Origin: Pseudomonadota bacterium
GTDB taxonomy: Bacteria > Pseudomonadota > Gammaproteobacteria > Steroidobacterales > Steroidobacteraceae
Length of the DNA stretch: 64,000 nt
NCBI GenBank assembly: GCA_021843755.1
Contig: JAKBWB010000064.1
Span: 1 to 64,000 of the forward strand
Direction of reading: 5' to 3'
The stretch's first letter is position 1, and the number at the start of each line of letters is the position of its first letter. The notes below the pieces were generated by a model. It did not search any database. It had not been told where the DNA came from and saw nothing but the letters and a program-made list of their open reading frames with translations. A program made the position numbers and the translations under genes. Shown piece by piece: positions 32,916 through 50,553 of the stretch.

Positions 32916-32992
32916 CGAATCGCCTCCCGGAGCACCCGTGCCGGCGCGGGGTATGCATCATGCTCTCCTGCGGGCGCGCTCGAGCGTCCACA

Positions 32993-34138
32993 TCACCCGC
33001 GTGTGCCGGCCCGCAGCGCCCGATCCAGATCGGCCCACAGATCCTCGAGCGCCTCGATTCCCACGCTCAGGCGCAGCAGCGAGGGCGGCAGGTGCTGCTG
33101 TCCGGCCACCCCCGCCCGCCGCTCGATGGTGGACTCGACCGCCCCGAGGCTGGTGGCATGTTGGATGAGCCGCAGGCCGGCGCACACCGCATCGGCGGCG
33201 CAGGCATCACCGCGCACGTCGAAGGAGATGATCGTGCCGAAACCCTCGAGCAGACGGCGCGCGGCCTCGTGCGTCGGGTGACTCTTCAGGCCCGGATAGC
33301 GAGTCAGCGCAACACTCGGATGGCACGCAAGGCGCTCGGCCAGTGTCATCGCGTTACGCTGCGCCCGCTCCAGCCGCAATGCCAGCGTGCGGGCCCCGCG
33401 AACCGCCAGAAACGTCTCCAGTGTGCCCGGAGTGGCGCCCGCGAGCTCGCGGGCCCGCCGTAGTGCCGCCACCAGACCCGGCTCGCGCGCCGTGGCCACT
33501 CCACCGAGCAGGTCCGAGTGCCCACCGATGAACTTGGTGACCGATTGCACCGCCACGTCGGCGCCGAGTGCAAGCGGCCGCTGATTCAGCGGGGTCGCGA
33601 ACGTGTTGTCCACGCCCAGGATCGCTCCACGCTTGCGCGCTGCCGCACAAATGACATCGAGGTCGGGAACCGCCAGCAGCGGGTTCGACATCGACTCGAG
33701 CCAGATCAGGTCCGCCGTGCCGCATGCCTCGACCCAACCGGCCGTGTCGGTCACCGCAAGGTGACGCACGGTCCAGCGGCCATGGCGCACGCCGGCCTGG
33801 ACGAGTCCTCCGACACCCTGGTACCCATCGTCCGGCAAGACGACGCTCGAGCCGGCGGGAAGTTGCTCGAATATCGCAGCGATCGCCGCCATTCCCGAAG
33901 CAAACGCGACGGAAGTGCCGCCTTCCAGGCCGCCGACGATCTCCTCGAGCGCCTCCCAGCCGGGCGTGGCGTCGCCACGCGAGTACGTCCGGCGCTCCCC
34001 CAGGATGAAATTCGATGCCGGCCAGGGAGGGACGTTGAGCGGCGCACCCGGACGCCGGTCCCGTCCCGCCGTGACCAGCCATGATTCCACTGAAGCTGCG
34101 CCGCCCATGTCACGTCCTGCATCATCCCGCGATGTCAT
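32993..34138 (-). CDS. Cys/Met-metabolism PLP enzyme (cystathionine gamma-synthase/lyase family)
   Basis: Fold-type I PLP enzyme of the trans-sulfuration family, 381 residues. The PLP-binding lysine is Lys202 in SVTKFIGGHSD, and the cofactor Asp is in ILGVDNTFATP. Other family marks are YSRGDATPGWEALEEIVGGLEGG, where the usual Y-x-R-x-x-NP has Asp-Ala-Thr in place of Asn, and ESMSNPLLAVPDL. It could be a cystathionine gamma-synthase, beta/gamma-lyase or methionine gamma-lyase-like enzyme; sequence alone does not decide. The ATG at 34108 is an alternative start. A GST gene follows on the same strand, which would fit sulfur or thiol metabolism. Confidence 0.9.
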   Translation of the reverse strand: MTSRDDAGRDMGGAASVESWLVTAGRDRRPGAPLNVPPWPASNFILGERRTYSRGDATPGWEALEEIVGGLEGGTSVAFASGMAAIAAIFEQLPAGSSVVLPDDGYQGVGGLVQAGVRHGRWTVRHLAVTDTAGWVEACGTADLIWLESMSNPLLAVPDLDVICAAARKRGAILGVDNTFATPLNQRPLALGADVAVQSVTKFIGGHSDLLGGVATAREPGLVAALRRARELAGATPGTLETFLAVRGARTLALRLERAQRNAMTLAERLACHPSVALTRYPGLKSHPTHEAARRLLEGFGTIISFDVRGDACAADAVCAGLRLIQHATSLGAVESTIERRAGVAGQQHLPPSLLRLSVGIEALEDLWADLDRALRAGTRG

Positions 34139-36117: not shown

Positions 36118-36475
36118 ACCACAGTGCATCTTCCGGCCGACTCCTCGCGACTCCTCTGCCTGTGAGGCGCCTACCAGCCGGCGGCGCCTGCGCGCCGGTG
36201 CAGGCTGGAGGAGTCCGCACCGCCGTACCGGTCCGGTGACGGGCGATCCCGTGGGCACCGGGACGAACATCCCTGCCGGCGGGCGGCGCGCAGAATAACG
36301 AGGGGCCGATCCCATCGCGACCGCCGTACCGGCCAACGCGCCGGCATGATCAGCGCGGATGCGCTTCGACGGCCGAGCCGTCCCGGTCAGGCAAGCCGGC
36401 AAGCGTCCGGTATTCCGGCACCCGGTCAATAATGGTAAATAGAGCATCCACCCCACGGGAACATCGGGTCGAGCC
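36118..36475. other. Intergenic region with inverted repeats
   Basis: About 360 bases between the GGDEF-EAL and TonB-receptor genes. The first part contains nested complementary segments: GACTCCTC (twice, about 36139-36155) with GAGGAGTC (about 36208-36215), and CCAGCC (36174-36179) with GGCTGG (36203-36208). They could fold downstream of the GGDEF-EAL stop. No gene is seen. Confidence 0.4.
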
Positions 36476-38842
36476 GTGCTTCAGATCCAACCGAGCCGGG
36501 AGGCATGGCCGTGCCGGATTGCGCTGCGCGGCCAGCTCGCGGCCCTGACGATCCTGGTGCTTGCCTCGAGCGCGTGCGCCGCCGCGCCACGCCCGCAGGC
36601 GCAGCGCCAGCAGCACGATGAGACGCTGCACACCATCATCGTCACCGCGCAGGGCCGAAGGCAACCGCTCGCCGAGGTCCCGGAGAGCATCACCGTATTC
36701 TCGGCCCGCACGCTCGCCGCCCTCGATATCCAGTCGTTCAACGGCTATGCCACCAAGACACCGAATCTCTCCTTCGCATACGGCGCAGGCTCGACGGGAA
36801 TTTCGAACGCACGGACGATCGCGATCCGGGGCATCACCGGGCAGAACCTGTTCGGTACCTCCGGCGCGACCGGATTTTATATCGACAACACCCCGCTGCC
36901 GGAGTCGATCAATCCACGCATCGTCGACGTCAAGCGGATCGAGATCCTCGAAGGCCCCCAAGGGACCCTGTTCGGGGAGAGTTCCCTCGGCGGCACGGTG
37001 CGCATCATCACCCGCAAGCCCGATTTGACCCGCAACGCGCTGGCATACAAGGCTCAGGCCGGATTGACCGCCGGCGGCGGCAGCGCCGATGGCGGCATCA
37101 ATCTCATCGACAACCTCGTGCTCGCCCCGGGCCGGCTCGCGATGCGTATCGTGCTCTACGGCAACCATCAGGCCGGCTACTTGACCCGAACCTTCCCGGC
37201 ACCCACCAGCCCCGCGACCGATGATCCGTTCCTGCATGTTCCGCGCACGCGCGTGGGAGATCAGGGGGCGCAGAGCACATATGGCGGCTCGATCACGACC
37301 CGCCTGCGCGTCAACCGGGCGCTGGAGGCGGATCTGATGGTGATGGCGCAGGACACCCACGACAAGGGATTCCCGGCCACTTTCGCGCCGCTGCCGGCCT
37401 TCAAGCCCCTGTACACCCTCAATCGGGCCTTCAACGTCCAGCCGGGCGCCACCTCCGCCTGGGTGCTGCCGTCGCTGACGATCCACTACCGGCACGGCAA
37501 CCTGCGGATCGTGTCCGCCACGAGCTACTTCTATCGCCACAACCGCGATATCGAGGACTCCACGTACGGCACCGAGCAGATCCTGCGCAGCTACTACGGC
37601 GTCACCTCGCTGCCCGCCCAACCCTTTCTGTGGGACCAGAAGAACTACGAGAATCAATTTACGCAGGAAATACGCCTGTCGTTCACTCGATTCCTCGGCA
37701 TCAGCGGGACCGTCGGCGCGTTCTTTGCCCGCACCCGCTCGGTGCTTTCCATCCCACCCACCTATGCGCGCGGGCTGGTGGCCGCGACGGCCGACAATAC
37801 GGTGGTCGGACCCTGGCCCAATGACCTGCTCTGGACCGATTACAACCCGGCCATGCAGCGCGACATGGCGCTGTTTGGGCAGATCTACGTGCCGCTCGGC
37901 CGCAAGCTCAGGTTGACCTTGGGCGCACGCCAATACTGGCTCCATGAGACCTCGGATTACACGGCCAACGGCTTCAACAATTTTGGCCTGACGCCGAGTG
38001 ACCCGCAATCGAGCCGCCAGTCCGGAATCGACCCGAAGGTTGCACTATCGTATCAGGTCAGCAAGCGAACGATGGTCTACGCATCCGCAGCGGAGGGATT
38101 CCGCGCCGGCGCCGCCCAGACATTCATGCCCTTCTGCGCGCTTCCGACGCTGCCGGTCGCTGATATCACGCACCTGAAATCCGACACCCTCTGGAGTTAC
38201 GAGGTCGGCGCAAAGACGCAGGTTCCGGACACCGCCCTGCTGCTCTCCGGTGCGGCGTTCCATATCGATTGGCGCAATCTTCAGCAGCAGGTCGCGCTGC
38301 CCTGCGAGTCCATCTTCGACATCAACGGCCGGCGGGCGGTCATCAACGGCGTGGACCTCGACCTGCAGGGCCACGTCGTTCCATCGCTGCGGGTGATGGC
38401 CGGCGTGGGCTTCGAGAAAACCGCCATCACCGAGCCGGGGGCTCTGGCGATCGTCGGGATCAGGCCGGGCTCGCGCATACTCGGCACGCCGGCCTGGACT
38501 GCCTCGCTCGCAGGCCTGTACACACGGCGCATATCGACTGGGCTCGACGGCTTCCTCGAGGCGGATGCCAGCTATACCGGGGACAGCCGAGCGTTGCTCA
38601 ACGGCGGCAACGGCACGTTCGCAACGCGCGCCGCGTATGTGCTCGTCGATCTGCGCATCGGGGTGCGCCATCACGGCAGCTCAATTTCCATCGACGTACG
38701 CAACGTGACCAACGCGAGACCGAATCTCGGCGACATCGGTTACGTTGGCTATGCACAATACACAGCCCAGGGAACCGTGATTCCACAGGTCGCAACCCTG
38801 CCGCCGTTGACGGTCTTGCTGCAGTACAGCCACGACTTCTGA
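36476..38842 (+). CDS. TonB-dependent receptor
   Basis: Outer-membrane TonB-dependent transporter, 788 residues, starting at GTG. A signal peptide (LAALTILVLASSACAAAP) precedes the TonB box (LHTIIVTAQGR). The plug domain is recognisable by SITVFSARTLAALDI, RTIAIRGITGQN, GFYIDNTPLPES and RIEILEGPQGTLFGESSLGGTVRIITRKP. The rest is a beta-barrel ending in the aromatic LLQYSHDF, as expected for BAM recognition. The barrel type, with short extracellular loops, is common in gammaproteobacteria that take up plant- or steroid-derived compounds, but the substrate cannot be named. It converges on the glycosyltransferase gene with 11 bases between. Confidence 0.93.
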   Translation: MLQIQPSREAWPCRIALRGQLAALTILVLASSACAAAPRPQAQRQQHDETLHTIIVTAQGRRQPLAEVPESITVFSARTLAALDIQSFNGYATKTPNLSFAYGAGSTGISNARTIAIRGITGQNLFGTSGATGFYIDNTPLPESINPRIVDVKRIEILEGPQGTLFGESSLGGTVRIITRKPDLTRNALAYKAQAGLTAGGGSADGGINLIDNLVLAPGRLAMRIVLYGNHQAGYLTRTFPAPTSPATDDPFLHVPRTRVGDQGAQSTYGGSITTRLRVNRALEADLMVMAQDTHDKGFPATFAPLPAFKPLYTLNRAFNVQPGATSAWVLPSLTIHYRHGNLRIVSATSYFYRHNRDIEDSTYGTEQILRSYYGVTSLPAQPFLWDQKNYENQFTQEIRLSFTRFLGISGTVGAFFARTRSVLSIPPTYARGLVAATADNTVVGPWPNDLLWTDYNPAMQRDMALFGQIYVPLGRKLRLTLGARQYWLHETSDYTANGFNNFGLTPSDPQSSRQSGIDPKVALSYQVSKRTMVYASAAEGFRAGAAQTFMPFCALPTLPVADITHLKSDTLWSYEVGAKTQVPDTALLLSGAAFHIDWRNLQQQVALPCESIFDINGRRAVINGVDLDLQGHVVPSLRVMAGVGFEKTAITEPGALAIVGIRPGSRILGTPAWTASLAGLYTRRISTGLDGFLEADASYTGDSRALLNGGNGTFATRAAYVLVDLRIGVRHHGSSISIDVRNVTNARPNLGDIGYVGYAQYTAQGTVIPQVATLPPLTVLLQYSHDF

Positions 38843-38853
38843 GCGGCGGCGGC

Positions 38854-39555
38854 TCAGCCGCGATACAGCTTCGCGATCAGATGCGGCGGAGTGCCCAGAA
38901 AATACAGGATGAGGCAGCTCAGATTCCGCAAGCTTCGCGGCATCCAACCGTCCTGATGCCATCGCTCGGCCGAGGTGTGCGCAGTAGCGGCAAGGACGGT
39001 AAGCCGACCACGGCCGATGCGGCGTACGAGATCAACGTCCTCCATCAGCGGCAAAGCCCGGAATCCTCCGAGCGACTGGTAGAGCGCGCGATGGATCAGC
39101 AATCCCTGATCGCCATAAGCCAGGCCGAGTCGGCGCACGCGCCATGCGACCATGCGCTCCAGGCGCCGTGCGCTGGCACTGCGGTCATCGAGCCGGAACT
39201 GGAAAGTGGCGGCGCGCAGGCGGTTGTCCCGATGGGCCGTGAACTCGCTCACCGCCCTGCTCCATCCGTCCCCGAGCACCGTGTCGGCGTGCAGAAACAG
39301 CAACCACTCCCCCTCGGCGGCGGCCGCGCCCCGATGCAGCTGAATGCCGCGGCCCGGATCGCTGGCAATGACCCGCGCGCCCGATCGACGGGCTATCGGC
39401 ACAGTGTCGTCGTGGGAGCCACCGTCAACAACGACGATTTCCCCGACGCCATGACAGGCGCACAGCGTTGCGGGCAAATGGCGCGCTGCATCGAGGGTGG
39501 GAATCACGACCGACACGTCGAACAAGCCGGTCTTTGACCGAGGGTGCACGCCCAT
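38854..39555 (-). CDS. GT2 glycosyltransferase (TIGR04283-like)
   Basis: Family 2 glycosyltransferase of 233 residues. The nucleotide-sugar site is visible in VSVVIPTLDAARHL, VVDGGSHDDT (with the Asp of the DGGS motif) and LLFLHADTVL (DxD-like). The segment GDQGLLIHRALYQSLGGF followed by PLMEDVDLVRRI is characteristic of the TIGR04283 group, members of which occur beside radical SAM enzymes in arsenosugar-type loci. It is the last gene of the six-gene minus-strand operon and starts 6 bases after the oxidoreductase stop. No arsM or arsS homologue with the expected features is present, so an arsenosugar role is not assumed. Confidence 0.88.
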   Translation of the reverse strand: MGVHPRSKTGLFDVSVVIPTLDAARHLPATLCACHGVGEIVVVDGGSHDDTVPIARRSGARVIASDPGRGIQLHRGAAAAEGEWLLFLHADTVLGDGWSRAVSEFTAHRDNRLRAATFQFRLDDRSASARRLERMVAWRVRRLGLAYGDQGLLIHRALYQSLGGFRALPLMEDVDLVRRIGRGRLTVLAATAHTSAERWHQDGWMPRSLRNLSCLILYFLGTPPHLIAKLYRG

Positions 39556-39561
39556 GGCCGT

Positions 39562-40980
39562 TCAGGACAAGGCCCGCAGCAGGCGAACCAGTCGTCTGGG
39601 CCATGGGCTGAACAGCTTTGGAGCATAGAATGCGCTCGCGGCCGCCTTGGAGATCTCCCCGAGCGTCGGATAGGGAAGGATGAGATTCGTCAGGGCGCTG
39701 AGCCGCAGTCCCCGACTGATCGCAAGACCCCACACCGGGATCAGCTCGCCGGCCTGCGGGCCGAGTATGCCCGCCCCGAGGATCGATCCGCGCCGGTCGG
39801 TCACCACCTTGATGCCGCCGGCGGTCTGTCCTTGTGCACGGGCACGATCGTTGTCCTCGAGGCTCGCCCGCACCACCTGCACCGCGGCGCCGAACCGCGC
39901 GCGCGCTTGCGCTTCCGTGAGACCAACTTGGGCGAGCTCCGGATCGCAGTAGGTGACCCGCGGCAGGGCACGATAATCGACCTTCGCCGGCAATCGGAAC
40001 AACGCATTGCGGATCACGATGCCCGCCTGGTAGCCCGCCGCATGGGTGAATTGCGGCGCCCCGATGACATCCCCGAGCGCAAAGACGCGCCGGTTCGTGG
40101 TGCGCAGTCGCGCATCGACGCGGATTCCGCGCAAGGTGTACTCGATGCCCGCGCGCTCGAGCGCAAGCCCCGTCAATCGCGGCTGGCGGCCGGCCGCAAC
40201 CAGAAGATCCGAGCCGACCCCCTCGCCGCCCTGGCCGTAGCGGGCCACGATGCCGCGGGCAACGCGCGCGACTTCGATGATTTCAGCGCCTTCATGAATC
40301 GAGATGCCTTCTGCCGCGAGCCTTCCTCTGAGCCTATCGACCAGCTCCGGTTCATCGCGCGGCAGCAACCGGCCGCGCTGGAACAGCGTCACTGCGCTGC
40401 CCAGCCGGCGAAAGGCTTGTGCCATCTCCACCCCGACCGGTCCTCCTCCGAGGATGAGCAGATGCTCGGGCCGCCGAGTCAACGAGAAGAGCGTTTCATT
40501 GGTCAGTGCCCCGATCTCATCGATACCCCGCACGGGCGGAATGAGGGCGGCCGAGCCCGCCGCGATGACAAAACGGCGGGCCCGGACGGTGAGCCCTCCG
40601 CCGGCCACCTCCTTATGGCCCGTGAACTGCGCCGGCGCACCGATCACGCGCACGCCCAATCTCTCGAGCCGCTCGACCGAATCGTGCGGCGCAATCTGCC
40701 CGATGACCGCGTGCACGCGGCGCATGACCGCCGCGAAATCCGCTTCAGGCACGCTGGTACGAATGCCGTAGCGTCCCGCCCCGGCGACGCCGTGCGCCGC
40801 ATGCGCCGCCGCGAGCAGCGCTTTCGAGGGGACGCAACCATAGTTCAGGCAGTCCCCACCCATCGTCCCCTTCTCGAACAGGACAGTCCGCGCCCCGAGC
40901 TGCACGGCGCCGACCGCGACGGACAATCCGGCCGCGCCAGCGCCAATGACACAGACATCACAGTCAATCGCACGACTCAT
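39562..40980 (-). CDS. Pyridine nucleotide-disulfide oxidoreductase-like flavoprotein
   Basis: FAD- and NAD(P)H-dependent enzyme in the dihydrolipoamide dehydrogenase/mercuric reductase family, 472 residues. The FAD dinucleotide motif is VIGAGAAGLSVAVG, the redox-active disulfide GGDCLNYGCVPSKA, the NAD(P) motif LILGGGPVGVEMA, and the second FAD motif RRVFALGDVIG. The C-terminal catalytic His of lipoamide dehydrogenases (HPT...E) is replaced by Tyr437 (LPYPTLGE, with Glu442 kept), so it is not a normal Lpd. No MerA N-terminal domain or C-terminal vicinal cysteines are present. Its ATG overlaps the stop of the ABC ATPase gene (ATGA). Confidence 0.9.
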   Translation of the reverse strand: MSRAIDCDVCVIGAGAAGLSVAVGAVQLGARTVLFEKGTMGGDCLNYGCVPSKALLAAAHAAHGVAGAGRYGIRTSVPEADFAAVMRRVHAVIGQIAPHDSVERLERLGVRVIGAPAQFTGHKEVAGGGLTVRARRFVIAAGSAALIPPVRGIDEIGALTNETLFSLTRRPEHLLILGGGPVGVEMAQAFRRLGSAVTLFQRGRLLPRDEPELVDRLRGRLAAEGISIHEGAEIIEVARVARGIVARYGQGGEGVGSDLLVAAGRQPRLTGLALERAGIEYTLRGIRVDARLRTTNRRVFALGDVIGAPQFTHAAGYQAGIVIRNALFRLPAKVDYRALPRVTYCDPELAQVGLTEAQARARFGAAVQVVRASLEDNDRARAQGQTAGGIKVVTDRRGSILGAGILGPQAGELIPVWGLAISRGLRLSALTNLILPYPTLGEISKAAASAFYAPKLFSPWPRRLVRLLRALS

Positions 40981-41735
40981 CGATCCGCCCCCTTCCCGGA
41001 CGGCGACCAGTCCCCGCCGATCGGGATGGCCGCACGCGCCGCGTCAATCGCCAGCGGTACGCGCGCTGCGCCGATCACGGGCATGCCATCGGCCGCCGTC
41101 CCGAGTTCGAGCACCGGTCCCTTGGCCGCCTCGGCGTCCGCCCAGTCGTGCGTCACCATCAGCACCGGCAGGCCCGCCGCAACGGCATGCCCGAATACGA
41201 AACGGCGGAAATCCGCGCGCAGCATCGTATCCAGCCTGTTGAAGGGCTCATCGAGCAAGAGCGCCTCCGGTTCGGCGAGCAGCAGGCGCAGCAACGCGAC
41301 ACGGGCGCGCTGTCCGCCGGAGAGCGTCGCCGGATCGCGGCGTGCGAAGCCCGCCAGGCCCGCTTCGCTCAGCGCGGCATCGATGCGCGCCGCGCGCAGC
41401 TTGCGCCCGCGCACCGTGGACCTGAGGCCGAAGGCCAGATTCTCACCCACCGACAGGTGCGGGAACAGCAGATCGTCCTGAAAGAGAATCCCGATGCGCC
41501 GCCGTTCGGGCGGCTGCTCCGTGACTTCGCGCGCGCCGATCCAGACTCTGCCCGTGGCCCGAAACGCCGCGGCGAGCGTGCCGCCGAGGTAGCTGAGCAA
41601 GGTCGACTTGCCCGATCCGCTCGGGCCCATGAGCGTCACGACTTGGCCGGGCGGCACGCCGACACTCCAGGGCGGAATCAGCACTCGCCCCTCGAGAGCG
41701 ATCGAGACCCGCTCCAGATGCAGCACTGCGCTCAT
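40977..41735 (-). CDS. ynjD: ABC importer ATPase (YnjD-like)
   Basis: ATP-binding subunit of an ABC importer, 252 residues. Walker A is GPSGSGKSTLL, the Q-loop ILFQDDLLF, the signature LSGGQRARVAL, and Walker B ALLLDEPFNRLD (with catalytic Glu), followed by the H-loop VTHDWADAEA. The Q-loop with paired aspartates is the one seen in YnjD/ThiQ-type subunits. It overlaps the permease stop and the oxidoreductase start by four bases each. With the two neighbouring genes it forms a YnjBCD-type transporter whose natural substrate is not established. Confidence 0.92.
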   Translation of the reverse strand: MSAVLHLERVSIALEGRVLIPPWSVGVPPGQVVTLMGPSGSGKSTLLSYLGGTLAAAFRATGRVWIGAREVTEQPPERRRIGILFQDDLLFPHLSVGENLAFGLRSTVRGRKLRAARIDAALSEAGLAGFARRDPATLSGGQRARVALLRLLLAEPEALLLDEPFNRLDTMLRADFRRFVFGHAVAAGLPVLMVTHDWADAEAAKGPVLELGTAADGMPVIGAARVPLAIDAARAAIPIGGDWSPSGKGADR

Positions 41736-43480
41736 GTCTCGCCCCCGGCCTGGCGCCTGTGAAACTGCAATCGCGCCGGCAAGCCGATGGCGAGCGCATA
41801 AGCGGCCAACGGAATGAGCGACTGCAGCAACGCGAAGACGCCGGTGATCCGGCGGTCACCGCCGCTCGCGAGCGCCACCGCCTCGGTGGTCAGCGTCACG
41901 ACCCGCCCGGCCCCCACCAATAGGGTCGGCAAGTATTGATCCACGCTGACGGCCACGCCGATCGCTACGGCAACGAGGATCGGACGCAGCAACAGGGGCA
42001 GCTTGATCCGCAGAAACACACGGCGCGGGGGAGTCCCGAGACACAACGCGGTACGGGCATAGCGTGCATCGAGCGATCGCCACGGTTCGGCCAGGCAGAG
42101 GAACACGTACGGCAGCACGAACAGCAGATGCGACCAGATCACGGCGATCAGCGAGCCCTCGAGGTGAACGACCGTCAGCAGCACCTGCGCCCCGAACAGA
42201 AACGCGATCTGGGGCACCAGCAGCGGCACGTACAGCAGCCACAATGCGCGCAAGGTGGCCGCCCGGCCGCTGCGCTGCTCATTCTCCAGGCAGCCCAGTA
42301 CGAGCAGCAGCGCCAGCGCGCTGGCGAGGACGGCCACGATCAGCGTGGTTTCCAGGGGCCAGGCCACCATGCTGAATTGCCGGGTCCACGTGTGAGCGCT
42401 CCAGTGCTTGGGCAGCAATTGCGGGAAGGGCCATCCGTCGGCGACCGACCAGACCCCCAGATCGATCAAGGATGCCAGCCCCAGTCCCGCCAGTCCCGCC
42501 ACCGCCGCCGCGGCGATCCGGGTCAGCGGCGCCAAGCGCGTACGGCGCGCGCCCTGAGCGATCCACCGCCGGCCGAGATGCGCAATGACCGTCTCGCCCG
42601 ACCGCCACAGCAGGATGCTCGCCAGGACGATGGCGAGTTGCAACAGCGCGGCGGCGGCGGCGGGGAAGTACATGCGGATATCGGGCGCGGTGAACCAGCG
42701 CAGCGCCAGCACGCTCAGGGTCGGCGGATTACCCGGTCCCAGAATGAGCGACATATCGACCACGGACAATGCGTACGCGAGCACGGCATAGATCGGCAAA
42801 CGGATCTGCGGATAGATCTGCGGGAGAATCAACTTCAGCCACGCCACCGTGCGGCCATAGCCCAGTGTCGCAGCCGCCTCGAGCTGGCGGGCCGCGGACA
42901 CCTGCCCGAGCGCCGTGATCGTCATCAGGAGAAGATACGGCACCTCCTTCACCAACAGCCCGAGCGTGAGCGCAATGCCGTACGGATCCTGCACGGTGGC
43001 GATGTCGGGGGGCTGATGCCAGCCGGTGAGCCAGGGTGACAGCAGCCGCACCACCCAGCCGCTCGGTGCGATCAGGAACCCAAGACCGATCGCCATTGCC
43101 GCATGCGGTGCCGCGAGAATCGGCGCCATGAGGCCCCGGCCGGCGCGTCCGGGCGTACGCCCGTGGAGCTGCGCACAGAGCCCGAAAACGAGCACGACCG
43201 ACAGTACGGTGGCCACGAGTCCGGTGCCGACGGTCAGGGCGATGGCCGCGCCGATCCCGGGTGCGGAAAACAGCCGGGCCCAGGGCCCCAGCGTGAACTC
43301 TCGGCCACCGATCGCCGGCAGCCAGCCGAACGCGGGCAACAGCGTCCCGAGGAGCCCCGCCACGATCGGCGCAAGAAACAGCGCCACGGTGATCAGCGGC
43401 GCGCAGCGCAGCCAAGAGCGCGAGCGCGCCCGGAGCGGCGCGAGCCGATGACTCGCCGCGCGCGCCGCGGCGCGCGTCAC
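41732..43480 (-). CDS. ynjC: ABC importer fused permease (YnjC-like)
   Basis: Inner-membrane permease made of two tandem BPD-type halves, 582 residues, about twelve helices. I placed the start at the GTG at 43480, which overlaps the stop of the binding-protein gene (GTGA). The cytoplasmic EAA-type loop that contacts the ATPase appears in each half: LEAAATLGYGRTVAWLKLILP in the first and ARTALCLGTPPRRVFLRIKLP in the second. This fused layout is that of YnjC and ThiP. The ATPase gene follows with a 4-base overlap. Confidence 0.9.
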   Translation of the reverse strand: MTRAAARAASHRLAPLRARSRSWLRCAPLITVALFLAPIVAGLLGTLLPAFGWLPAIGGREFTLGPWARLFSAPGIGAAIALTVGTGLVATVLSVVLVFGLCAQLHGRTPGRAGRGLMAPILAAPHAAMAIGLGFLIAPSGWVVRLLSPWLTGWHQPPDIATVQDPYGIALTLGLLVKEVPYLLLMTITALGQVSAARQLEAAATLGYGRTVAWLKLILPQIYPQIRLPIYAVLAYALSVVDMSLILGPGNPPTLSVLALRWFTAPDIRMYFPAAAAALLQLAIVLASILLWRSGETVIAHLGRRWIAQGARRTRLAPLTRIAAAAVAGLAGLGLASLIDLGVWSVADGWPFPQLLPKHWSAHTWTRQFSMVAWPLETTLIVAVLASALALLLVLGCLENEQRSGRAATLRALWLLYVPLLVPQIAFLFGAQVLLTVVHLEGSLIAVIWSHLLFVLPYVFLCLAEPWRSLDARYARTALCLGTPPRRVFLRIKLPLLLRPILVAVAIGVAVSVDQYLPTLLVGAGRVVTLTTEAVALASGGDRRITGVFALLQSLIPLAAYALAIGLPARLQFHRRQAGGET

Positions 43481-44682
43481 GGCGTATAGCGCCGCTCCCA
43501 GGCCTCGGCCAGACGGCGGGCCCAGGATGGATGCGGCTCCGGAAGCACGCGCTGCAACGCCGCGCGCCGCGGCACCCACGGACTGGCGGGCAGGGATGTG
43601 AAGCGCGCGCGCTGCGCGGGGCTCAGCTTCGCCAGATCGAGCACGGTCGGTCCGCCCAGGTAGCGGATGTTCCCGGCACGGGCCTGTGCCGCCGGCGAGA
43701 GGAGGAAGTTCGCCACCACCATCGCACCGGCCTTGTGCGGGGAGTTGTACGGGATGGCGACGAAGCTGGTGTTGCCGATCGTCCCGTGCGCGAGCACGAC
43801 GGTGCGGACTGTCCGCGGCAGCAGGCCGGCCTCGACGTCCGCGGCGGCCTCGGTGGGGTTGAAGGACGGCATCATGTCGATCTCGCCGTCCTCCAGCAGC
43901 TCGCGCTCGGCCGGTCCACTGGCCGGGAACTCGCGCCCGTGACGCCACAGATACGGGCGCAGCCGGTCGTACCACGCCCAGAGCGGCGCGGTCACCTCGG
44001 CGAAATCGGCCGCGCGCACCGGCCGCAGCAGCACGGCCGGGTCGGGTGTCAGCGCATAGAGAGCCTGCTCCAGGAACGCGACCCCGAGGAAATTCTGCAC
44101 CTGCGGGAAGGTGAATCGTCCGGGATGCCGCTTCGCCCAGGCCGGAAAGGCTTGGATGCTCAGCGGGACGTGCTTGACATAGGCGGAGTTGTAAACAAAG
44201 ACGAGCTGGGCCTTGCGCCAGGGGGACTCGTAGCCGCCGACCGCAACGGTGAAGTCATAGAGATTCGACGGGTCACGGGTGTTCACCAGGGCGTAATTCG
44301 GCAGCCGCTGCGTGAACGGTCCATAGAGAAGCCCGCGGCGCTTCAGCGCATAGAAGTTCGGGCCATTGATCCAGATGAGATCGACGGTCCCGTCGGTATT
44401 GTCACCGGCGGCCTTCTCGGCGATCACCTGGCTGACGGCTTGCGAGGTAGCCTCGAGCGGCACCTGCCGCAACGTCACATCGCAACAGGCCGAAACCTGT
44501 TGTCCCACCCACGCGATATAAGCATCCATGCGCACATCGCCCGCCCAGGCATCGAAATACACGGTCTGGCCGCGTGCTTGCGCCAGGATGCTCTTCCACG
44601 ACGCCGCCATAGCGGGTGAGACCAATATGCTCGCAAGAACAGCTGCAGTCGCGGCACCCTGCAGCACCTTCGCCCGCCTCAC
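43477..44682 (-). CDS. ynjB: ABC importer substrate-binding protein (YnjB-like)
   Basis: Periplasmic binding protein of the YnjB family, 401 residues from the GTG at 44682, which overlaps the radical SAM stop (GTGA) and has GGAG upstream. The signal peptide is QGAATAAVLASILVSPAMA. Mature features include SWKSILAQARGQTVYFDAWAG, the family-typical ISWxG-like region (AYIAWVGQQV), VDLIWINGPNFYALK and GEIDMMPSFNPTEAA. YnjB-type proteins resemble thiamine- and iron-binding ABC receptors; the ligand is unknown. It is the second gene of the operon. Confidence 0.9.
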   Translation of the reverse strand: MRRAKVLQGAATAAVLASILVSPAMAASWKSILAQARGQTVYFDAWAGDVRMDAYIAWVGQQVSACCDVTLRQVPLEATSQAVSQVIAEKAAGDNTDGTVDLIWINGPNFYALKRRGLLYGPFTQRLPNYALVNTRDPSNLYDFTVAVGGYESPWRKAQLVFVYNSAYVKHVPLSIQAFPAWAKRHPGRFTFPQVQNFLGVAFLEQALYALTPDPAVLLRPVRAADFAEVTAPLWAWYDRLRPYLWRHGREFPASGPAERELLEDGEIDMMPSFNPTEAAADVEAGLLPRTVRTVVLAHGTIGNTSFVAIPYNSPHKAGAMVVANFLLSPAAQARAGNIRYLGGPTVLDLAKLSPAQRARFTSLPASPWVPRRAALQRVLPEPHPSWARRLAEAWERRYTP

Positions 44683-45797
44683 TCGCGGCAACTCCGCTGC
44701 GCGGCGCGCCGGGCCCGAGCCGCCTCGATCACCGCTCCAAGCACCGATTCGTGGAAGCGATCGCAGCCGATGCACAGGTTCGCATACGGGGCACCCGTGG
44801 GCGTTACGGTGCCGGACTCGGCCATGAAACGCGCCTCGCTCCATCCATAGGCGAGCCCCATGCGCTCGGGGTGACCCGCGGAAATCGCCTCGAACGCCGG
44901 CTCGTGCGCCAGGGAATCCAGGATCGAGATCAGATCGTCCTCCAGAAGGTTGCCGATCGGCACCCGGGTCTTGATGCAGCAGGGGAATACGTCGCCCCTC
45001 GGATCAATGGACACCTCCGAGCCACTATAGCCGTGCCGGAGGAAATTCAGCCCACCCGACCAGCGATTGCAGAAGTTGTCCGCCAGCGTCGCACTCGAGA
45101 GGCCATTCTCCCACGCCCGCCCTCGCGGCCACAGCCGGCCGATCCAGGCATCCGGGGTCGCCCCGAAGAAATTGTAATACGGCCCCGACGCCGCCTGCGA
45201 CCCGGTCCCCGCGGTCACCGGCCCGTCCGCTGGATGCAGGCCGTGCGCTTCGAAAAGGCGGCTCAGACGCTCCTTGAAGGCGGCCTGCCGAGCCGGGCTG
45301 TGCATGCCGGAGTGGAACGAATCCACACCCGAGACCGAGATCGTCGATGCGCCGCGCGCGAGCAGATCCTCGAGGATCGCTTCGGTCAGCAGATCACCCG
45401 TTGTCTGGACGATCAGGTCCACGCCGCCGCAGGCGGCATAGCGCTCTCGGATCCGCTCCATGGCCGGGTACAGCACGCGGGTGCGGACCGGATCGATCAG
45501 CACTTCGCCGCCCGAGAGAATGATTCTGCTGCGCCGCTGCGGCAGGCTGCCATCGCCGGCCGGATGCTCGCGATCGAGATAGCGCATCCGCGGCGGAAGG
45601 TGATCGATGATGCGCGGAAAATTCGCGATCGCCTCGCTGACGACCCCCTCGAGCGCCGCGCGCACGTACGGCCGGAAGCGAGGCTCGTAGCAGTGCCGGC
45701 ACTTGCGATGACACGCCCAGGACAGCACGTAGTAGATGGATTCCACGGGTTCGAACGACTCTCCCGCCGGCGAGTGCGCCGAAGACCTGCCGCGCAC
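44679..45797 (-). CDS. Radical SAM/SPASM-like protein
   Basis: Radical S-adenosylmethionine enzyme, 372 residues from a GTG start. The [4Fe-4S] motif CHRKCRHC (Cys29, Cys33, Cys36) lies very near the N-terminus. The glycine-rich SAM segment is SRIILSGGEVLIDP. A cysteine-rich C-terminal half (DNFCNRW, DVFPCCIKTRVPIGNL and NLCIGCDRF) looks like a SPASM-type auxiliary cluster domain. It is the first gene of the six-gene operon, whose next genes encode an ABC importer, so it may act on the imported compound. SPASM enzymes usually modify peptides, but no small precursor gene was found beside it. Confidence 0.9.
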   Translation of the reverse strand: MRGRSSAHSPAGESFEPVESIYYVLSWACHRKCRHCYEPRFRPYVRAALEGVVSEAIANFPRIIDHLPPRMRYLDREHPAGDGSLPQRRSRIILSGGEVLIDPVRTRVLYPAMERIRERYAACGGVDLIVQTTGDLLTEAILEDLLARGASTISVSGVDSFHSGMHSPARQAAFKERLSRLFEAHGLHPADGPVTAGTGSQAASGPYYNFFGATPDAWIGRLWPRGRAWENGLSSATLADNFCNRWSGGLNFLRHGYSGSEVSIDPRGDVFPCCIKTRVPIGNLLEDDLISILDSLAHEPAFEAISAGHPERMGLAYGWSEARFMAESGTVTPTGAPYANLCIGCDRFHESVLGAVIEAARARRAAQRSCRE

Positions 45798-46182
45798 ACT
45801 GGATCACGAGGACCGGCGCCCCTCGGTCTGTATTGCACGAGCGGCGAAGTCTACACCGGTTCGACCCGCGGCCAGACCTGCGCGCGGGCCGCGCCTCACC
45901 GGCGGCCTCGAGGCGAAGGCCGAGGCGATATACGTAATTCTACCGATAGTCACTCCGGTACGGCCCGCCAGACTGTCAAGGATTCGCTGATGCCCGCGAG
46001 TCCGGCCGGTCGCCGAATCGATGGTGCTGCGCCGGCGCCCGTAGCGACTACGGCGCAGAGGGATCGGCCGCCGCGGCCAGGGGAAGCGGCACGGAGCGCG
46101 CTGAACGGTGGTCGACCACTGCCGACACGGTGCGCAGACTGGCCCGCGGCGCGGGCAGGCAGATAGCTGCGGGAGTACGGCT
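45798..46182. other. Divergent intergenic region between two radical SAM genes
   Basis: 385 bases that must contain promoters for the radical SAM-ABC operon (minus) and the B12-binding radical SAM gene (plus). The only AT-richer stretch is around 45929-45953. I looked for a small precursor-peptide gene and saw none with a ribosome site. Confidence 0.45.
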
Positions 46183-47751
46183 ATGAAACGACGGATCCTG
46201 TGCATCTTTCCACGCTATACCCCTTCTTTCGGCACCTTCGAGCACGCCTATTCGTTGCGCGGCAATACCCGCGCCTTCATGCCTCCCCAGGGCCTGCTGG
46301 TCATCGCCGCCGCTGCGCCCTCGGATTGGGAAGTTCGTTTCCTCGACGAGAACATCGCCCCGGCGCGGGAAACTGACTTCGCCTGGGCCGAGGCGGTGTT
46401 CGTCAGCGGCATGCATGTACAGCGCGCGGCCATCGAGGACATCAACCGCCGCGCGCACCGGCTCGGCAAGACGACGGTGCTCGGCGGTCCGTCGGTATCC
46501 GCCTGCCCGGAGCAGTATCCGGATTTCGACTATGTGCACATCGGCGAACTCGGCGATGCCACCGATCAGCTGTTCGAGCGGCTCGCGGCATGCCCGGCCA
46601 GACCGCGGCAGCAGATTTGCCTCAGGACGCTCGAGCGCCGTCCGCTCCGCGATTTTCCCGCTCCCGCCTACGCGCTGGCGCATCTGCAGAAGTACTTCAT
46701 CGGCAGCGTGCAGTTCTCGAGCGGCTGTCCCTACCAGTGCGAGTTCTGCGACATCCCGGCCCTCTACGGCCGCGTGCCGCGCCTGAAGACGCCCGAGCAG
46801 GTGCTGCGCGAGCTCGACACCCAGCTCGCCGCCGGACAGTCCGGAGCCGTCTACTTCGTCGATGACAACTTCATCGGCAACCGCAAGGCCGCGCGCGCGC
46901 TGCTGCGCGCGCTCATTCTCTGGCAGCAACGCAACGGGTATCCCATCGAGCTCGCATGCGAGGCCACTCTCAACATCGCCCGCTATCCCGACATCCTCGC
47001 GATGATGCGCGAGGCATACTTCACGACCGTTTTCTGCGGCATCGAGACTCCCGAACTCGGGGCGCTCGAGGCGATACACAAGCGTCACAACGTCTCGGTG
47101 CCGATCCTGGAGGCGGTCGAGACATTGAATGCCTACGGCCTCGAGGTTGTTTCCGGGATCATACTGGGCCTCGATACCGATACCGCCGAGACGCCGGCGC
47201 GCATCGCCGAGTTCATCCGCCGCAGCCGCATTCCAATGCTGACGGTGAATCTGCTGCAGGCCCTGCCGCGCACCGAGCTGTATGCCCGCCTCGCCGCGGA
47301 GGGCCGAATCGCCGAGGATCCGAGCCTGGAATCGAACGTTCGCTTCCGCCGGCCCTATGACGCGGTGGTCTCGGCCTGGCGGCAGCTCATCGCGGAAGCA
47401 TACACTCCGGAGGCCGTATACGAGCGCTTCGCCTGGAACAGCGCGCACACCTATCCGAACCGCAAGGCGTTACCGGCGAACTCTACGCGGGCCTCATGGT
47501 CGAACATGCGCCGTGGCCTGACGATCATGGCCAACCTTTTGTTCAAGGTCGGTATCGCGTCGGACTACCGCACGACATTCTGGCGCACTGCCTGGCCGCT
47601 TCTGCGGCAAGGACGCGTGGAGGAGGTGATTCACGTAGGGCTCGTCGCCCACCATCTGATCAGCTATACGCGCGAGGCCCTCGCAGGCCGCCAGAATGCG
47701 TCGTATTATTCGCCGCGAGCGGCGCCGGCAGGAAGGTCCGCAGCGATCTAG
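46183..47751 (+). CDS. B12-binding radical SAM protein (HpnP-like, DUF4070)
   Basis: Cobalamin-dependent radical SAM enzyme, probably a methylase, 522 residues from the ATG at 46183 (GGGAG eight bases upstream). The N-terminal cobalamin-binding fold (residues about 1-150) lacks the DxHxxG motif, as in HpnP. The cluster motif is CPYQCEFC (Cys182, Cys186, Cys189), followed by VYFVDDNFIGNRKAARAL and FCGIETPELGALE. The C-terminal part (about 370-500) fits DUF4070. The closest characterised type is the hopanoid C-2 methylase HpnP, and an HpnL-like gene lies 1.8 kb downstream, but no hopanoid cyclase is present, so another lipid substrate is possible. Confidence 0.87.
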   Translation: MKRRILCIFPRYTPSFGTFEHAYSLRGNTRAFMPPQGLLVIAAAAPSDWEVRFLDENIAPARETDFAWAEAVFVSGMHVQRAAIEDINRRAHRLGKTTVLGGPSVSACPEQYPDFDYVHIGELGDATDQLFERLAACPARPRQQICLRTLERRPLRDFPAPAYALAHLQKYFIGSVQFSSGCPYQCEFCDIPALYGRVPRLKTPEQVLRELDTQLAAGQSGAVYFVDDNFIGNRKAARALLRALILWQQRNGYPIELACEATLNIARYPDILAMMREAYFTTVFCGIETPELGALEAIHKRHNVSVPILEAVETLNAYGLEVVSGIILGLDTDTAETPARIAEFIRRSRIPMLTVNLLQALPRTELYARLAAEGRIAEDPSLESNVRFRRPYDAVVSAWRQLIAEAYTPEAVYERFAWNSAHTYPNRKALPANSTRASWSNMRRGLTIMANLLFKVGIASDYRTTFWRTAWPLLRQGRVEEVIHVGLVAHHLISYTREALAGRQNASYYSPRAAPAGRSAAI

Positions 47752-47963
47752 CGAAGACTGGTTCGGCTCGCGCGCCCGACATCCATGCCCGAGGTCCCGG
47801 GCGCAAGACGAACACATCGGGACTTCGGGTCGGCCGAGCACATGCGCTCCCCGCTGTAGGGTATGCGCAGTTTGCACGTACGCCGCGTGGCAACTGCCTA
47901 TTGTCGGCGGGGCTCCTTGCGTCGTTTCCTAGCTGAAGGTCGCGGCGCACGGTTGACGATTGC

Positions 47964-47993
47964 GGTGCGAGCGGCCACCGCACCGCTCGCACC
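47964..47993 (+). repeat. 11-bp perfect inverted repeat
   Basis: GGTGCGAGCGG and CCGCTCGCACC flank an eight-base loop. It lies 212 bases after the B12 radical SAM stop, without a T-run. A terminator needing a factor, or an operator for the sulfotransferase operon, are both possible. Confidence 0.55.
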
Positions 47994-48071
47994 CGACGTA
48001 ACCACGGCCGGCGGTGCTTCGGGGACACGGCGGTTCCGGTGGCAACAGGAGCCACGGCCCGAAGCTGGAGG

Positions 48072-48095
48072 TGCCGGCCCGGTGCAGGGCCGGCA
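48072..48095 (+). repeat. 9-bp hairpin just before the sulfotransferase gene
   Basis: TGCCGGCCC and GGGCCGGCA flank a six-base loop, ending 29 bases before the sulfotransferase start codon. A stem this strong in the leader could affect translation of the gene. Confidence 0.5.
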
Positions 48096-48124
48096 TGGTG
48101 GGTAGTTACGAAGGATGGTACGGT

Positions 48125-49582
48125 ATGATTTACGGTCCGCTGATCACGGTCCTCGTACTGGCCTTGTTGATCGCCGTCGCTGCGCCCCTGCTGCGCCGGA
48201 TGGCGAGCCTGTCACGCTCCGTCGCGACGCACCGCCGCGACATACCAACCCGCGAACCACGCGACGTTCCCTCGTATGCCGCACACGCTTCGCTGCTGGA
48301 CGGGTCGGCGGGCGCGGTGGAACGGGTTGCGCTCCCGGCGCGTGGACCGGCGCGGGCGGCGCGACGGCCAGGGGCTCGGCTGCTCGATCGCATCGCGCCG
48401 CTCGATGCGGCCGAACTCATCGATACCGCACTGCGTCGGCGCGGGTGCCGCGAGTTTTCCGACTGGACGTTCGCCACACCGCTGCAACGGCTGCTGCGCT
48501 CCCTGCACGAGGAAGAGCAGCTGTCGACATTCGGCCGGCTCGCGGCCCGCTTCGATGCCTTGCGCTGTCTCGACAACCAACTGGCTCTGGATATCGCCGA
48601 GCGGACCGATCCGGCGATCGCGCGCCGCCGCATCGTGCGACCGATTTTCATCACCGGGCTGCCGCGCAGCGGCTCCACTTTTCTGCACTCCATGCTGGCG
48701 CTCGATCCGGCCGTTGCCGTACCGCGCAGCTGGCAGCTCATGTACCCCTACCCAACCGGCAGCCTGCTGGCCGGCGCCGACAACCGCCGCGCGCGGGTGG
48801 CGCGCCAATTCGCCTTGTTTCGTCTGCTCTCACCGGAGCTCGCCGGCATGCATCCACTGGCGGCCGACGCCCCGCAGGAATGCACCGATATCACCGCCCA
48901 GGTCTTCCAGAGCCTGCGGTTTGATACGATCTACCGCATCCCCGCCTATCGCGACTGGCTGGATCAACACGGTCACGACGGCGCCTACCGCTTTCACCGG
49001 CGGTTTCTCCAGCACCTCGATGCGCAGGCGGCATCCGCAAGGCACTGGGTGTTGAAGAGTCCCGACCACGTTTTCGCGCTGGATGCTCTGCGCCGGACCT
49101 ATCCGGATGCCCGCATCGTCATGCTGCACCGTGACCCGTTGTGTGTCCTCGCCTCGGTCGCCAAGCTGACCGAGATACTCAGGCGTCCCTTCACACGTCA
49201 TGTCGATCGCGAGCAGATCGGCGCGGAGATCAGCGCGCGCTGGGCCGACGGCGCCGAACGAATGGTGGCCGCACGCTCGAGCGGCGCACAGATGCTGCAC
49301 CTGCACTATCACGATCTGGTGAGCGCACCCATGGACACGATCTCGGCCCTGTACGATCACTGTGGCATGACGCTCAGTGCCGAGGCCGAAGCGCGTATGG
49401 CCGAATTCCTGCGCGCGCGACCGAGAGGCGGCTACGCCGTGCACGCCCATCGCCTCGAGTCGTTCGGGCTCGAGGCGGCGGCGCTGCGCGAGCGCTTTGC
49501 CGGGTACATGCAGACGTTCGATGTCCGGCCCGAGCGGACCGGCTTCTGTGCGGCGAATGTCGGGGACTCGGGCACCGCATGA
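48125..49582 (+). CDS. Sulfotransferase family protein (membrane-anchored)
   Basis: PAPS-dependent sulfotransferase, 485 residues from the ATG at 48125. An N-terminal membrane anchor (LITVLVLALLIAVAAPLL) is followed by an Arg/Ala-rich linker and the catalytic domain. The 5'-phosphosulfate loop is GLPRSGSTFLHS at residues 178-189. The 3'-phosphate-binding region is LHRDPLCVLASVAKL, preceded by the conserved WVLKSPDHVFALDAL. It belongs to the Sulfotransferase_3-like group. The gene overlaps the HpnL-like gene by four bases (ATGA). A lipid or glycolipid acceptor is inferred from the membrane anchor and neighbours. Confidence 0.9.
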   Translation: MIYGPLITVLVLALLIAVAAPLLRRMASLSRSVATHRRDIPTREPRDVPSYAAHASLLDGSAGAVERVALPARGPARAARRPGARLLDRIAPLDAAELIDTALRRRGCREFSDWTFATPLQRLLRSLHEEEQLSTFGRLAARFDALRCLDNQLALDIAERTDPAIARRRIVRPIFITGLPRSGSTFLHSMLALDPAVAVPRSWQLMYPYPTGSLLAGADNRRARVARQFALFRLLSPELAGMHPLAADAPQECTDITAQVFQSLRFDTIYRIPAYRDWLDQHGHDGAYRFHRRFLQHLDAQAASARHWVLKSPDHVFALDALRRTYPDARIVMLHRDPLCVLASVAKLTEILRRPFTRHVDREQIGAEISARWADGAERMVAARSSGAQMLHLHYHDLVSAPMDTISALYDHCGMTLSAEAEARMAEFLRARPRGGYAVHAHRLESFGLEAAALRERFAGYMQTFDVRPERTGFCAANVGDSGTA

Positions 49583-50553
49583 GCCGATGGAAGGTGCTCG
49601 CCGCACTGTGCGGCGCCGCGGGACTTCTTGCGGCAATCGGCTACGCGGGCTTCGATGCGGTCGGACACGCGGCGCAACGCATCGGTTTCACCGGACTCGC
49701 GCTGCTGGCGCTGATCCATCTGCCGGCCATCGCCTTGATGGGCTACGCCTGGTCGCGGATCGGCTCGGTGGTGAGCGACGGCTCACCATGGCGATACGTG
49801 TGGGCGCGTTACGTGCGCGAGTCGACCGCGGAAGTGCTGCCATTGTCCCAACTCGGGGGCGTCGTGGCCGGCGCACGGGTACTCGCCCTGAGCGGCATCG
49901 ACGCCGTGTCCGTCGCGGGCTCTGTGCTGGCGGATCTCGTCATCGAGCAGACCGCGAAACTGCCGTACGTGCTGGCCGGAGCGATCCTGCTGCTGAGGGG
50001 CTCGCGAACCGCATCGCCCGCAGTCATCGCCTACGCGCTGCTGCCGGCGCTTGCCCTGATGATCACCCTGCTGCTGTGGCGCAAGCCGATCGAGTCGCTG
50101 CTCGAGCGCGGTGCTCGGGGACTGGCGCAACGGATGCCAAGCCTGCGGATCGGGAGCCCCGAGGCGTTGCGGCTGACGCTCGATCGGCTCTTCGCCGTGA
50201 ACTGGCCGACGGTGTCGGCTTTTCTCGCCCACGCCGCCGCTTGGGTATTGGGCGCGGTGGAGACCTGGGTCGCCCTGCATCTTATGGGAATAGCGGTTTC
50301 GGGCACCGAGGCATTCGTCATCGACAGCCTCTTCTGCGGACTGCGCACGTTCGGTTTCGCGGTTCCGGCCGCCCTCGGCGTTCAGGAAGCCGGCTACGTT
50401 CTGGTGTGCGCGCTGGTCGGTGTTCCCGCCGCCCCCGCCGTCGCTCTGTCGTTGGTTCGCCGGGTGCGCGAATTCCTCATCGGCACGCCCGGACTCGGAC
50501 TGTGGCAACTGCTCGAGGGCAGACGGGCCCTCGCCGGCGTTCCACGCGACTGA
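49579..50553 (+). CDS. HpnL-like integral membrane protein (LPG synthase TM family)
   Basis: Polytopic membrane protein of 324 residues with about eight helices, belonging to the lysylphosphatidylglycerol synthase transmembrane family (PF03706), closest in motif to HpnL of hopanoid loci. The signature is YVRESTAEVLPLSQLGGVVAGARVL, read here as VRESTAEVLPLSQLGG then VVAGARVLALSG, together with the C-terminal AALGVQEAGYVLVCALVG. Its ATG overlaps the sulfotransferase stop. HpnL-type proteins are thought to help move lipids across the membrane, which would fit export of a sulfated or methylated lipid. Confidence 0.87.
   Translation: MSRWKVLAALCGAAGLLAAIGYAGFDAVGHAAQRIGFTGLALLALIHLPAIALMGYAWSRIGSVVSDGSPWRYVWARYVRESTAEVLPLSQLGGVVAGARVLALSGIDAVSVAGSVLADLVIEQTAKLPYVLAGAILLLRGSRTASPAVIAYALLPALALMITLLLWRKPIESLLERGARGLAQRMPSLRIGSPEALRLTLDRLFAVNWPTVSAFLAHAAAWVLGAVETWVALHLMGIAVSGTEAFVIDSLFCGLRTFGFAVPAALGVQEAGYVLVCALVGVPAAPAVALSLVRRVREFLIGTPGLGLWQLLEGRRALAGVPRD

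Follow-up and report, generated by a model that had tools for sequence, protein, structure and literature searches.

What brings a radical S-adenosylmethionine (SAM) enzyme, an importer of YnjBCD type, a MerA-like flavoenzyme and a glycosyltransferase together in one tightly packed row of genes? The question is raised by a 64,000-nucleotide stretch of DNA (hereafter the window; assembly GCA_021843755.1, contig JAKBWB010000064.1, positions 1 to 64,000) from a Pseudomonadota bacterium of the Steroidobacteraceae, in which six minus-strand genes, namely rSAM, ynjB, ynjC, ynjD, a MerA-like flavoenzyme gene and a TIGR04283 glycosyltransferase gene, follow one another head to tail at 38854-45797. We tentatively propose, giving the proposal slightly less than an even chance, that they form a translationally coupled operon for taking up a small organic ligand, modifying it with the radical SAM enzyme and glycosylating it. 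The operon seems to be a variant of YnjBCD-type loci and not an arsenosugar pathway, and its pathway seems undescribed: as the initial annotation had suspected in knowing of no characterised pathway with this exact set, no description of the operon or of its gene set was found in the open-licence part of PubMed Central (PMC). The features of the locus are as follows.

44679-45746, minus strand: rSAM, a radical SAM enzyme with a SPASM/twitch-like C-terminal domain, 355 amino acids from the likely GTG start (372 amino acids from 45797)
43477-44682, minus strand: ynjB, a periplasmic solute-binding protein (NF008633, SBP_bac_8)
41732-43480, minus strand: ynjC, a double-length ATP-binding cassette (ABC) permease of 582 amino acids, with weak permease matches in both halves
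40977-41735, minus strand: ynjD, an ABC ATPase (ABC_tran, 105.3 bits)
39562-40980, minus strand: a MerA-like flavin disulfide oxidoreductase, the flavoenzyme (Pyr_redox_2, Pyr_redox_dim)
38854-39555, minus strand: a family-2 glycosyltransferase, TIGR04283 (212.2 bits against a cut-off of 182)
36476-38842, plus strand: a TonB-dependent outer-membrane receptor (PF00593, PF07715), convergent with the glycosyltransferase gene and 11 bases from it
40977-44682, minus strand: four start/stop overlaps of 4 bases each, at 44679, 43477, 41732 and 40977

All six reading frames claimed in the initial annotation were found in place, and the protein families it had named were well supported by profile matches and by the radical SAM motif. 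The overlaps it had listed were likewise confirmed on the window's letters, reading GTGA at 44679-44682 (rSAM/ynjB) and 43477-43480 (ynjB/ynjC) and ATGA at 41732-41735 (ynjC/ynjD) and 40977-40980 (ynjD/flavoenzyme), with a 6-base gap between the stop of the flavoenzyme gene and the start of the glycosyltransferase gene. The rSAM gene stood as well, though not its start at 45797: because relatives begin with (A/G)TG followed by GAATC or GAGTC (peptide MESIYY), the true start is most likely the equivalent GTG at 45746, 51 bases downstream. Residues 1-14 of the rSAM structural model are of low confidence. Compared with the related locus L004, and likewise with L005, all six genes differ mainly at third codon positions, where over half of the changes lie.

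Relatives were collected in a single scan of genome contigs with rSAM, which gave 44 loci (45 with the window) and, being based on peptide patterns of the query, favours close relatives. Gene calls in these loci came from a simple codon-score script with approximate starts, and neighbours were counted within 8 kb of the anchor gene, on contigs some of which are cut short. Near rSAM we found ynjB in 43 of the 45 loci, ynjC in 42, ynjD in 40, the glycosyltransferase in 18, the flavoenzyme in 13, a TonB receptor in 11, DUF2064 in 10 and MNIO in 8. The rSAM-ynjBCD core recurs across alpha-, beta- and gammaproteobacteria, Bosea vaviloviae SD260 and Azospirillum halopraeferens being among its carriers, and the full six-gene order is present in ten loci (the window, L003, L004, L005, L007, L009, L010, L037, L038 and L040), each of which has the convergent TonB receptor; L006 is cut inside the flavoenzyme. 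Convergent receptors were found in the window and ten other loci, including L008, which has neither flavoenzyme nor glycosyltransferase.

The junctions were scored with a script that, given an in-frame start at -4, chose it over others. In the window and the 11 closest loci with the core, the -4 spacing was found at rSAM/ynjB in 12 of 12, at ynjB/ynjC in 11 of 12 and at ynjC/ynjD in 12 of 12, and at ynjD/flavoenzyme in 10 of the 11, among these 12, that have the flavoenzyme. As this spacing is kept in the closest relatives while ATG, GTG and TTG start codons interchange, the overlap geometry is more than chance. Among 21 more distant loci it was kept at the same three core junctions in 4, 3 and 17, respectively. 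The conserved unit is rSAM-ynjBCD, and the flavoenzyme, the glycosyltransferase and DUF2064 make up an accessory block. Thus, of the single six-gene pathway first claimed, the coupled unit holds and the need for all six genes does not; conservation across genera, proposed as a check, holds across classes for the core, with the full order limited to the ten loci above and fewer overlaps at a distance.

The radical SAM enzyme belongs to its superfamily by its CxxxCxxC motif (C29/C33/C36; cysteines are numbered from 45797), invariant in 40 of 40 aligned rSAM sequences, and by its fold matches, despite a Radical_SAM score (PF04055, 25.5 bits) under the cut-off of 29.5. It passed the SPASM profile over part of its length (PF13186, 25.9 bits, cut-off 21.5), and outside the CxxxCxxC motif the only cysteines invariant in all 40 sequences are C243, C273, C274, C342 and C345. 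The full SPASM motif comprises seven cysteines, CX9-15GX4C-CX2CX5CX3C-C, and holds two auxiliary clusters, while twitch enzymes (BtrN-like) have a half-SPASM fold with one auxiliary 4Fe-4S cluster. Because five and not seven invariant cysteines lie outside the SAM motif, the count probably amounts to one auxiliary cluster's worth besides the SAM cluster, and we rejected an assignment as a SPASM enzyme with two. The earlier label "SPASM-like" is thus borne out by PF13186 and not by the full motif. The cysteine count fits the twitch type, and the top structural match of the rSAM model (predicted local distance difference test, pLDDT, 82.7) is BtrN, with a template-modelling (TM) score of 0.39 by query. 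The top 25 matches, among them BtrN, DesII, ChlB, anSME and viperin, score 0.33-0.40 by query; BtrN/DesII-type enzymes are the best structural matches of the model, but at a TM score of about 0.4 and 12-18% identity. No NCBIfam model reached its cut-off with rSAM, the sole matches (E up to 0.01) being weak ones to DynA and YhhB, maturases of ribosomally synthesised and post-translationally modified peptides (RiPPs).

YnjB scored 457.6 bits against NF008633 (cut-off 203), matched SBP_bac_8 and has an N-terminus that reads like a signal peptide; with the double permease ynjC and the ATPase ynjD adjoining, the importer is of YnjBCD type. Its model (pLDDT 89.9) matched ferric-, hexose-phosphate-, metal-citrate- and polyamine-binding proteins and, at the top, STM0429, a 2-aminoethylphosphonate-binding protein; these modelled matches span many ligands and do not single one out. 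The invariant residues of YnjB include W, N, D, R, Q and E, and since no Tyr, Cys or His is among them (H384 is nearly invariant), they suggest a site better suited to an organic ligand than to a bare metal ion. PDB sequence searches with rSAM and with YnjB returned nothing useful, and no known YnjB ligand was found in the open-licence part of PMC. KEGG labels YnjBCD a thiamine importer, and the ThiP and ThiQ models do match, weakly; a thiamine or related vitamin importer with unrelated enzymes in the same transcript is nevertheless highly improbable, with ThiQ at 142 bits against a cut-off of 245, ThiP at 17 bits and no thiamine pyrophosphate or other riboswitch that would name a ligand at the gathering threshold in 12 sources searched. 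On these scores and the lack of such a riboswitch, we did not assign the locus to the thiamine importers.

The flavoenzyme carries a CLNYGC redox pair, a Tyr for the catalytic His and no VTT domain. Its best matches were the MerA and PRK06370 models, neither of which it passed (MerA TIGR02053, 360.4 bits, cut-off 454.45), and we rejected it as a mercuric reductase on that cut-off. It shares with MerA the redox CxxxxC pair and the Tyr in place of His; MerA, however, carries a C-terminal Cys pair and an N-terminal metal-binding domain, and the window flavoenzyme has neither. The substituted His, which the initial annotation had singled out, is real but no special feature, Tyr standing there in 34 of 36 flavoenzyme rows aligned at this site and the two with His being distant paralogues. 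The glycosyltransferase is a TIGR04283 member by its score, and its motifs DGGS, H(A/C)DT and ED are conserved in 13 of 13 sequences. No VTT-flavoenzyme fusion was found elsewhere in the window genome: a long VTT frame on C8 matches no flavoenzyme, and the four remaining VTT frames, of 218-303 amino acids (their neighbours were left out), are too short for a fusion. The genome's single DUF2064 gene is on another contig, with no TIGR04283-family transferase in the 18 kb read there.

Together, these families would allow the following course. A ligand X would cross the outer membrane through the TonB receptor, be bound by YnjB and be imported by YnjC/YnjD; in the cytoplasm, rSAM, with its SAM cluster and probably one auxiliary cluster, would oxidise X or join it to a SAM-derived group. 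The flavoenzyme, judging by its family, may use NAD(P)H to drive thiol/disulfide reduction, and a sugar may be attached by the TIGR04283 transferase. The sequence of uptake, modification and then glycosylation given in the initial annotation is supported by the families and the coupling; we infer these steps, reduction included, from the observed gene set, overlaps, families, conservation and block sharing. A lineage in which this importer is coupled in translation to a radical SAM enzyme and has an accessory block in common with ArsS loci narrows the chemistry to be considered for YnjBCD, an orphan importer whose YnjB is present in E. coli and matched 51 of the 398 genomes sampled from the phylum of the window.

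The accessory block is also found beside ArsS, the radical SAM enzyme of arsenosugar synthesis. The initial annotation had held that an arsenosugar pathway with ArsM/ArsS partners would speak against its reading, and in the window genome (assembly 96.8% complete) neither exceeds its cut-off: the best ArsS (TIGR04167) match has an E value of 1.8e-5 and ArsM reaches 52.6 bits against 263, by which we ruled that pathway out. Among the 398 genomes, ArsS passed its cut-off in 114, YnjB matched in 51 and both were found in none (Fisher p 1.7e-8, with relatedness ignored). We read ArsS loci from 20 of the 114 genomes, chosen by hand, ten of them from the window's class; L146, L149, L151, L153 and L155 are shorter than 18 kb, four because their contigs end. 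The ten from the window's class hold the VTT domain and flavoenzyme, fused or adjacent, in seven, the glycosyltransferase in seven and DUF2064 in eight, in the order ArsS, VTT-flavoenzyme, glycosyltransferase, DUF2064 in L148, L155 and L156; L164 has the block ahead of ArsS, and L161 has its flavoenzyme on the opposite strand. They resemble the window in setting a radical SAM gene beside a MerA-like flavoenzyme, a TIGR04283-like glycosyltransferase and DUF2064, and differ in that ArsS is of another radical SAM family, that the flavoenzyme has or adjoins a VTT domain and that the genome is without YnjB. In trees of the two enzymes (quick trees, some branches long), the VTT-flavoenzymes of ArsS and YnjBCD loci intermingle. 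The flavoenzyme-transferase-DUF2064 group may be viewed as an exchangeable block in which rSAM-YnjBCD would here take the place held elsewhere by ArsS.

Could the product then be an arsenosugar or arsenolipid after all, with a radical SAM enzyme other than ArsS forming the carbon-arsenic bond? The TIGR04283 model is named arsenosugar glycosyltransferase, the same block adjoins ArsS, and radical SAM enzymes form carbon-arsenic bonds in two other pathways, according to an excerpt of PMC12159101. We consider this distinctly unlikely: besides the sub-threshold ArsS and ArsM, a profile comparison of rSAM with ArsS gave 6.5% probability over 33 columns, and no ars gene was recognised among the annotated neighbours (annotation covered part of them). 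A more specific form of our proposal, which we regard as doubtful, is that rSAM-YnjBCD may be an undescribed alternative to ArsS, in which an imported ligand, not a methylated arsenical, would be altered by or joined to a SAM-derived radical and enter the flavoenzyme-glycosyltransferase-DUF2064 branch. If this is true, the product would be a glycosylated compound of a new class, possibly linked to lipid and made under metal(loid) stress.

YnjBCD also occurs without this radical SAM enzyme: 49 of the 51 YnjB genomes are without an rSAM of the window family, and G280 has one on another contig. We examined 40 YnjB regions without rSAM, from 39 of the 51 genomes (the remaining 12 being the window genome and 11 left out); none has a window-family rSAM nearby and all 40 have a ynjC homologue within 8 kb. 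A CDP-alcohol phosphatidyltransferase lies within 8 kb in 26 of them and a flavoenzyme in 14 (13 being VTT fusion frames of 716-776 amino acids, and the L109 copy a distant paralogue), with the glycosyltransferase and DUF2064 in two and MNIO in two. A DUF547 cluster is common to eight regions and a fatty-acid-hydroxylase cluster gene to six (one member of each tested), VTT/DedA genes are also present, and in L081 an APH-family kinase gene (Pfam) directly precedes ynjB, with a look-alike, judged by eye, in L085. The E. coli K-12 stretch runs ydjX, ydjY, ydjZ, ynjA, ynjB, ynjC, ynjD, ynjE, ynjF, ydjX and ydjZ being DedA genes. Its ynjB, ynjC and ynjD keep the window's order and carry the annotation of a putative transporter, but the stretch has no radical SAM enzyme, flavoenzyme or glycosyltransferase; it has instead DedA proteins, one protein of ferredoxin type, one resembling AhpD, a CDP-alcohol transferase and a sulfurtransferase.

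These neighbours raise a phospholipid headgroup route, in which YnjBCD would import a polar alcohol or sugar phosphate to be activated and built into a membrane lipid, with rSAM and the glycosyltransferase tailoring the headgroup. The transferase in 26 of 40 regions, the kinase before ynjB, the VTT/DedA and fatty-acid-hydroxylase genes and the E. coli ydjX, ydjZ and ynjF all argue for it; against these stand a CDP-alcohol transferase near just 1 of the 45 rSAM loci and the three PF01066 copies of the window genome, all on contigs other than the window's. We judge the headgroup route unlikely for the window.

A metal(loid)/envelope-stress setting for the operon is supported in relatives only. 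Genes for MNIO and DUF2063 lie beside 8 of the 45 rSAM loci, on the opposite side from the rSAM operon, with DoxX in six of the eight and a DUF2282 precursor identified in L037, in one cluster with which fall L009 and L040. Such bufferins are described as copper-chelating in an excerpt of PMC12452194, and captophorins is the name put forward in an excerpt of PMC12668002. According to an excerpt of PMC3511200, sigma-F of Caulobacter, which is reported in heavy-metal stress, has the box GTAACC-N16-CGAA; this exact box lies between rSAM and the bufferin genes in seven of the eight loci, with one mismatch in L009, and points to the bufferin side, by which a bidirectional promoter shared with the rSAM operon was ruled out. 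Toward rSAM it was found in 4 of 45 loci (exact in L014 at 9933-9958 and in L019 at 5427-5452 and 5370-5395, the second L019 copy facing a divergent glycosyltransferase; one mismatch in L017 and L036), compared with 0.17 expected over 45 x 180 bases under a pattern loosened post hoc. Two YnjB regions, L095 and L096, carry MNIO, DUF2063 (weak in L096) and a precursor that looks bufferin-like by eye ahead of ynjB on the same strand, in line with ynjBCD, and in two Hyphomicrobiales loci a multicopper oxidase gene lies on the other strand between ynjB and ynjC.

This adjacency raises RiPP maturation, in which rSAM would modify a peptide, perhaps the bufferin-type precursor encoded beside the operon in relatives. 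It is in keeping with the weak DynA and YhhB matches and with MNIO, DUF2063, DoxX and the DUF2282 precursor next to the operon in relatives, yet very unlikely in our view: the gene overlaps leave no space for a precursor within the operon, none of the window, L003 and L004 showed an MNIO gene near the operon, and in the eight relatives the bufferin genes run divergently and have their own sigma-F-type box. The window locus was not classed as a bufferin operon, there being no MNIO near it.

For the uptake, radical-SAM modification and glycosylation of an organic ligand, we count the core order and coupling across classes, the fold matches of rSAM, the invariant YnjB residues, the block shared with ArsS loci, the YnjB/ArsS exclusion and the metal context. 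Several observations weigh on the other side. Near rSAM the flavoenzyme is missing in 32 of 45 loci and the glycosyltransferase in 27 (some contigs being cut short). The rSAM profile matched 4 of the 398 genomes (the window genome, G280, G256 and G323), and rSAM is not strictly tied to YnjBCD, because it stands without a linked YnjBCD in G280, whose YnjB is on another contig, and in G256 and G323, with no YnjB at the threshold used. The YnjB/ArsS exclusion is confounded by taxonomy, and the ten ArsS loci outside the window's class, some cut short, have the VTT-flavoenzyme once (with DUF547) and neither glycosyltransferase nor DUF2064. In the trees, window-type flavoenzymes lie apart from the ArsS type, 12 of 14 rSAM-linked ones standing apart, as do 14 of 18 rSAM-linked glycosyltransferases; among ArsS-type sequences fall the L018 flavoenzyme and the glycosyltransferases of L016, L019, L021 and L024. 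Since most rSAM-linked copies stand apart, the block is, on these sequences, common to both locus types as a kind, and no ArsS locus was a recent donor of the window copies. The bufferin adjacency is a raw count of neighbours, the window locus has no bufferin operon and the window no exact sigma-F box. Finally, ydjXYZ-ynjABCD of E. coli is listed as FNR-activated in an excerpt of PMC3688515, and such control does not point to metals.

Variants of the core were also seen. The loci without ynjB are L002, cut off by its contig end 20 bases past the match, and L036. The latter is a true exception, in which a solute-binding protein of another family directly follows rSAM (the pair at 2498-4482), with 934 bases of contig left after rSAM; by sequence its closest PDB entry was 4edp, the binding protein of an ABC transporter (E 1.1e-07), and its SBP_bac_11 score stayed under the cut-off. 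As the L036 rSAM adjoins a non-YnjB binding protein, the pairing of rSAM with an importer may be general, with partners other than YnjBCD included. In L034 rSAM is inverted between ynjB and ynjC, and in L013 a Ferric_reduct membrane protein gene (11109-11975), by eye of YedZ/MsrQ type, lies between rSAM and ynjB; YedY is listed under sigma-F in the excerpt of PMC3511200. The gammaproteobacterial loci L027, L029, L033, L039, L041 and L042 have a small transporter pair (MadM in L029) and an AMP-binding ligase before the core. The rSAM gene appears broken in L031 (in-frame stop) and L043 (two overlapping frames). Relatives of rSAM away from YnjBCD lie beside a nucleoside 2-deoxyribosyltransferase (L179), a 2-oxoglutarate oxygenase and S9 peptidase (L180) and an SMP-30/gluconolactonase gene (L181).

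Exact sigma-F-type sites also face the TonB receptor match from some 600-640 bases upstream in L005 (17025-17050) and L038 (20562-20587). After ynjBCD, both L095 and L096 have a CDP-alcohol transferase and a fusion of VTT and flavoenzyme; L095 also has, opposite, a small gene whose product resembles an extracytoplasmic function sigma factor.

A promoter scan of window positions 36300-46300 found no sigma-70-like site (1.2 expected), and the same interval holds six terminator-like sites (4.4 expected). Divergent from the operon, on the plus strand at 46108-50553, lie a B12-binding radical SAM gene with DUF4070, a sulfotransferase gene and an LPG-synthase-TM gene; the first two recur in L002-L004, and other relatives have the bufferin operon there. 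On the minus strand, the window further encodes an ABC ATPase with two nucleotide-binding domains, an outer-membrane efflux protein and a Cys/Met pyridoxal phosphate enzyme (26100-34138) and a BacA-family gene (51663-52523).

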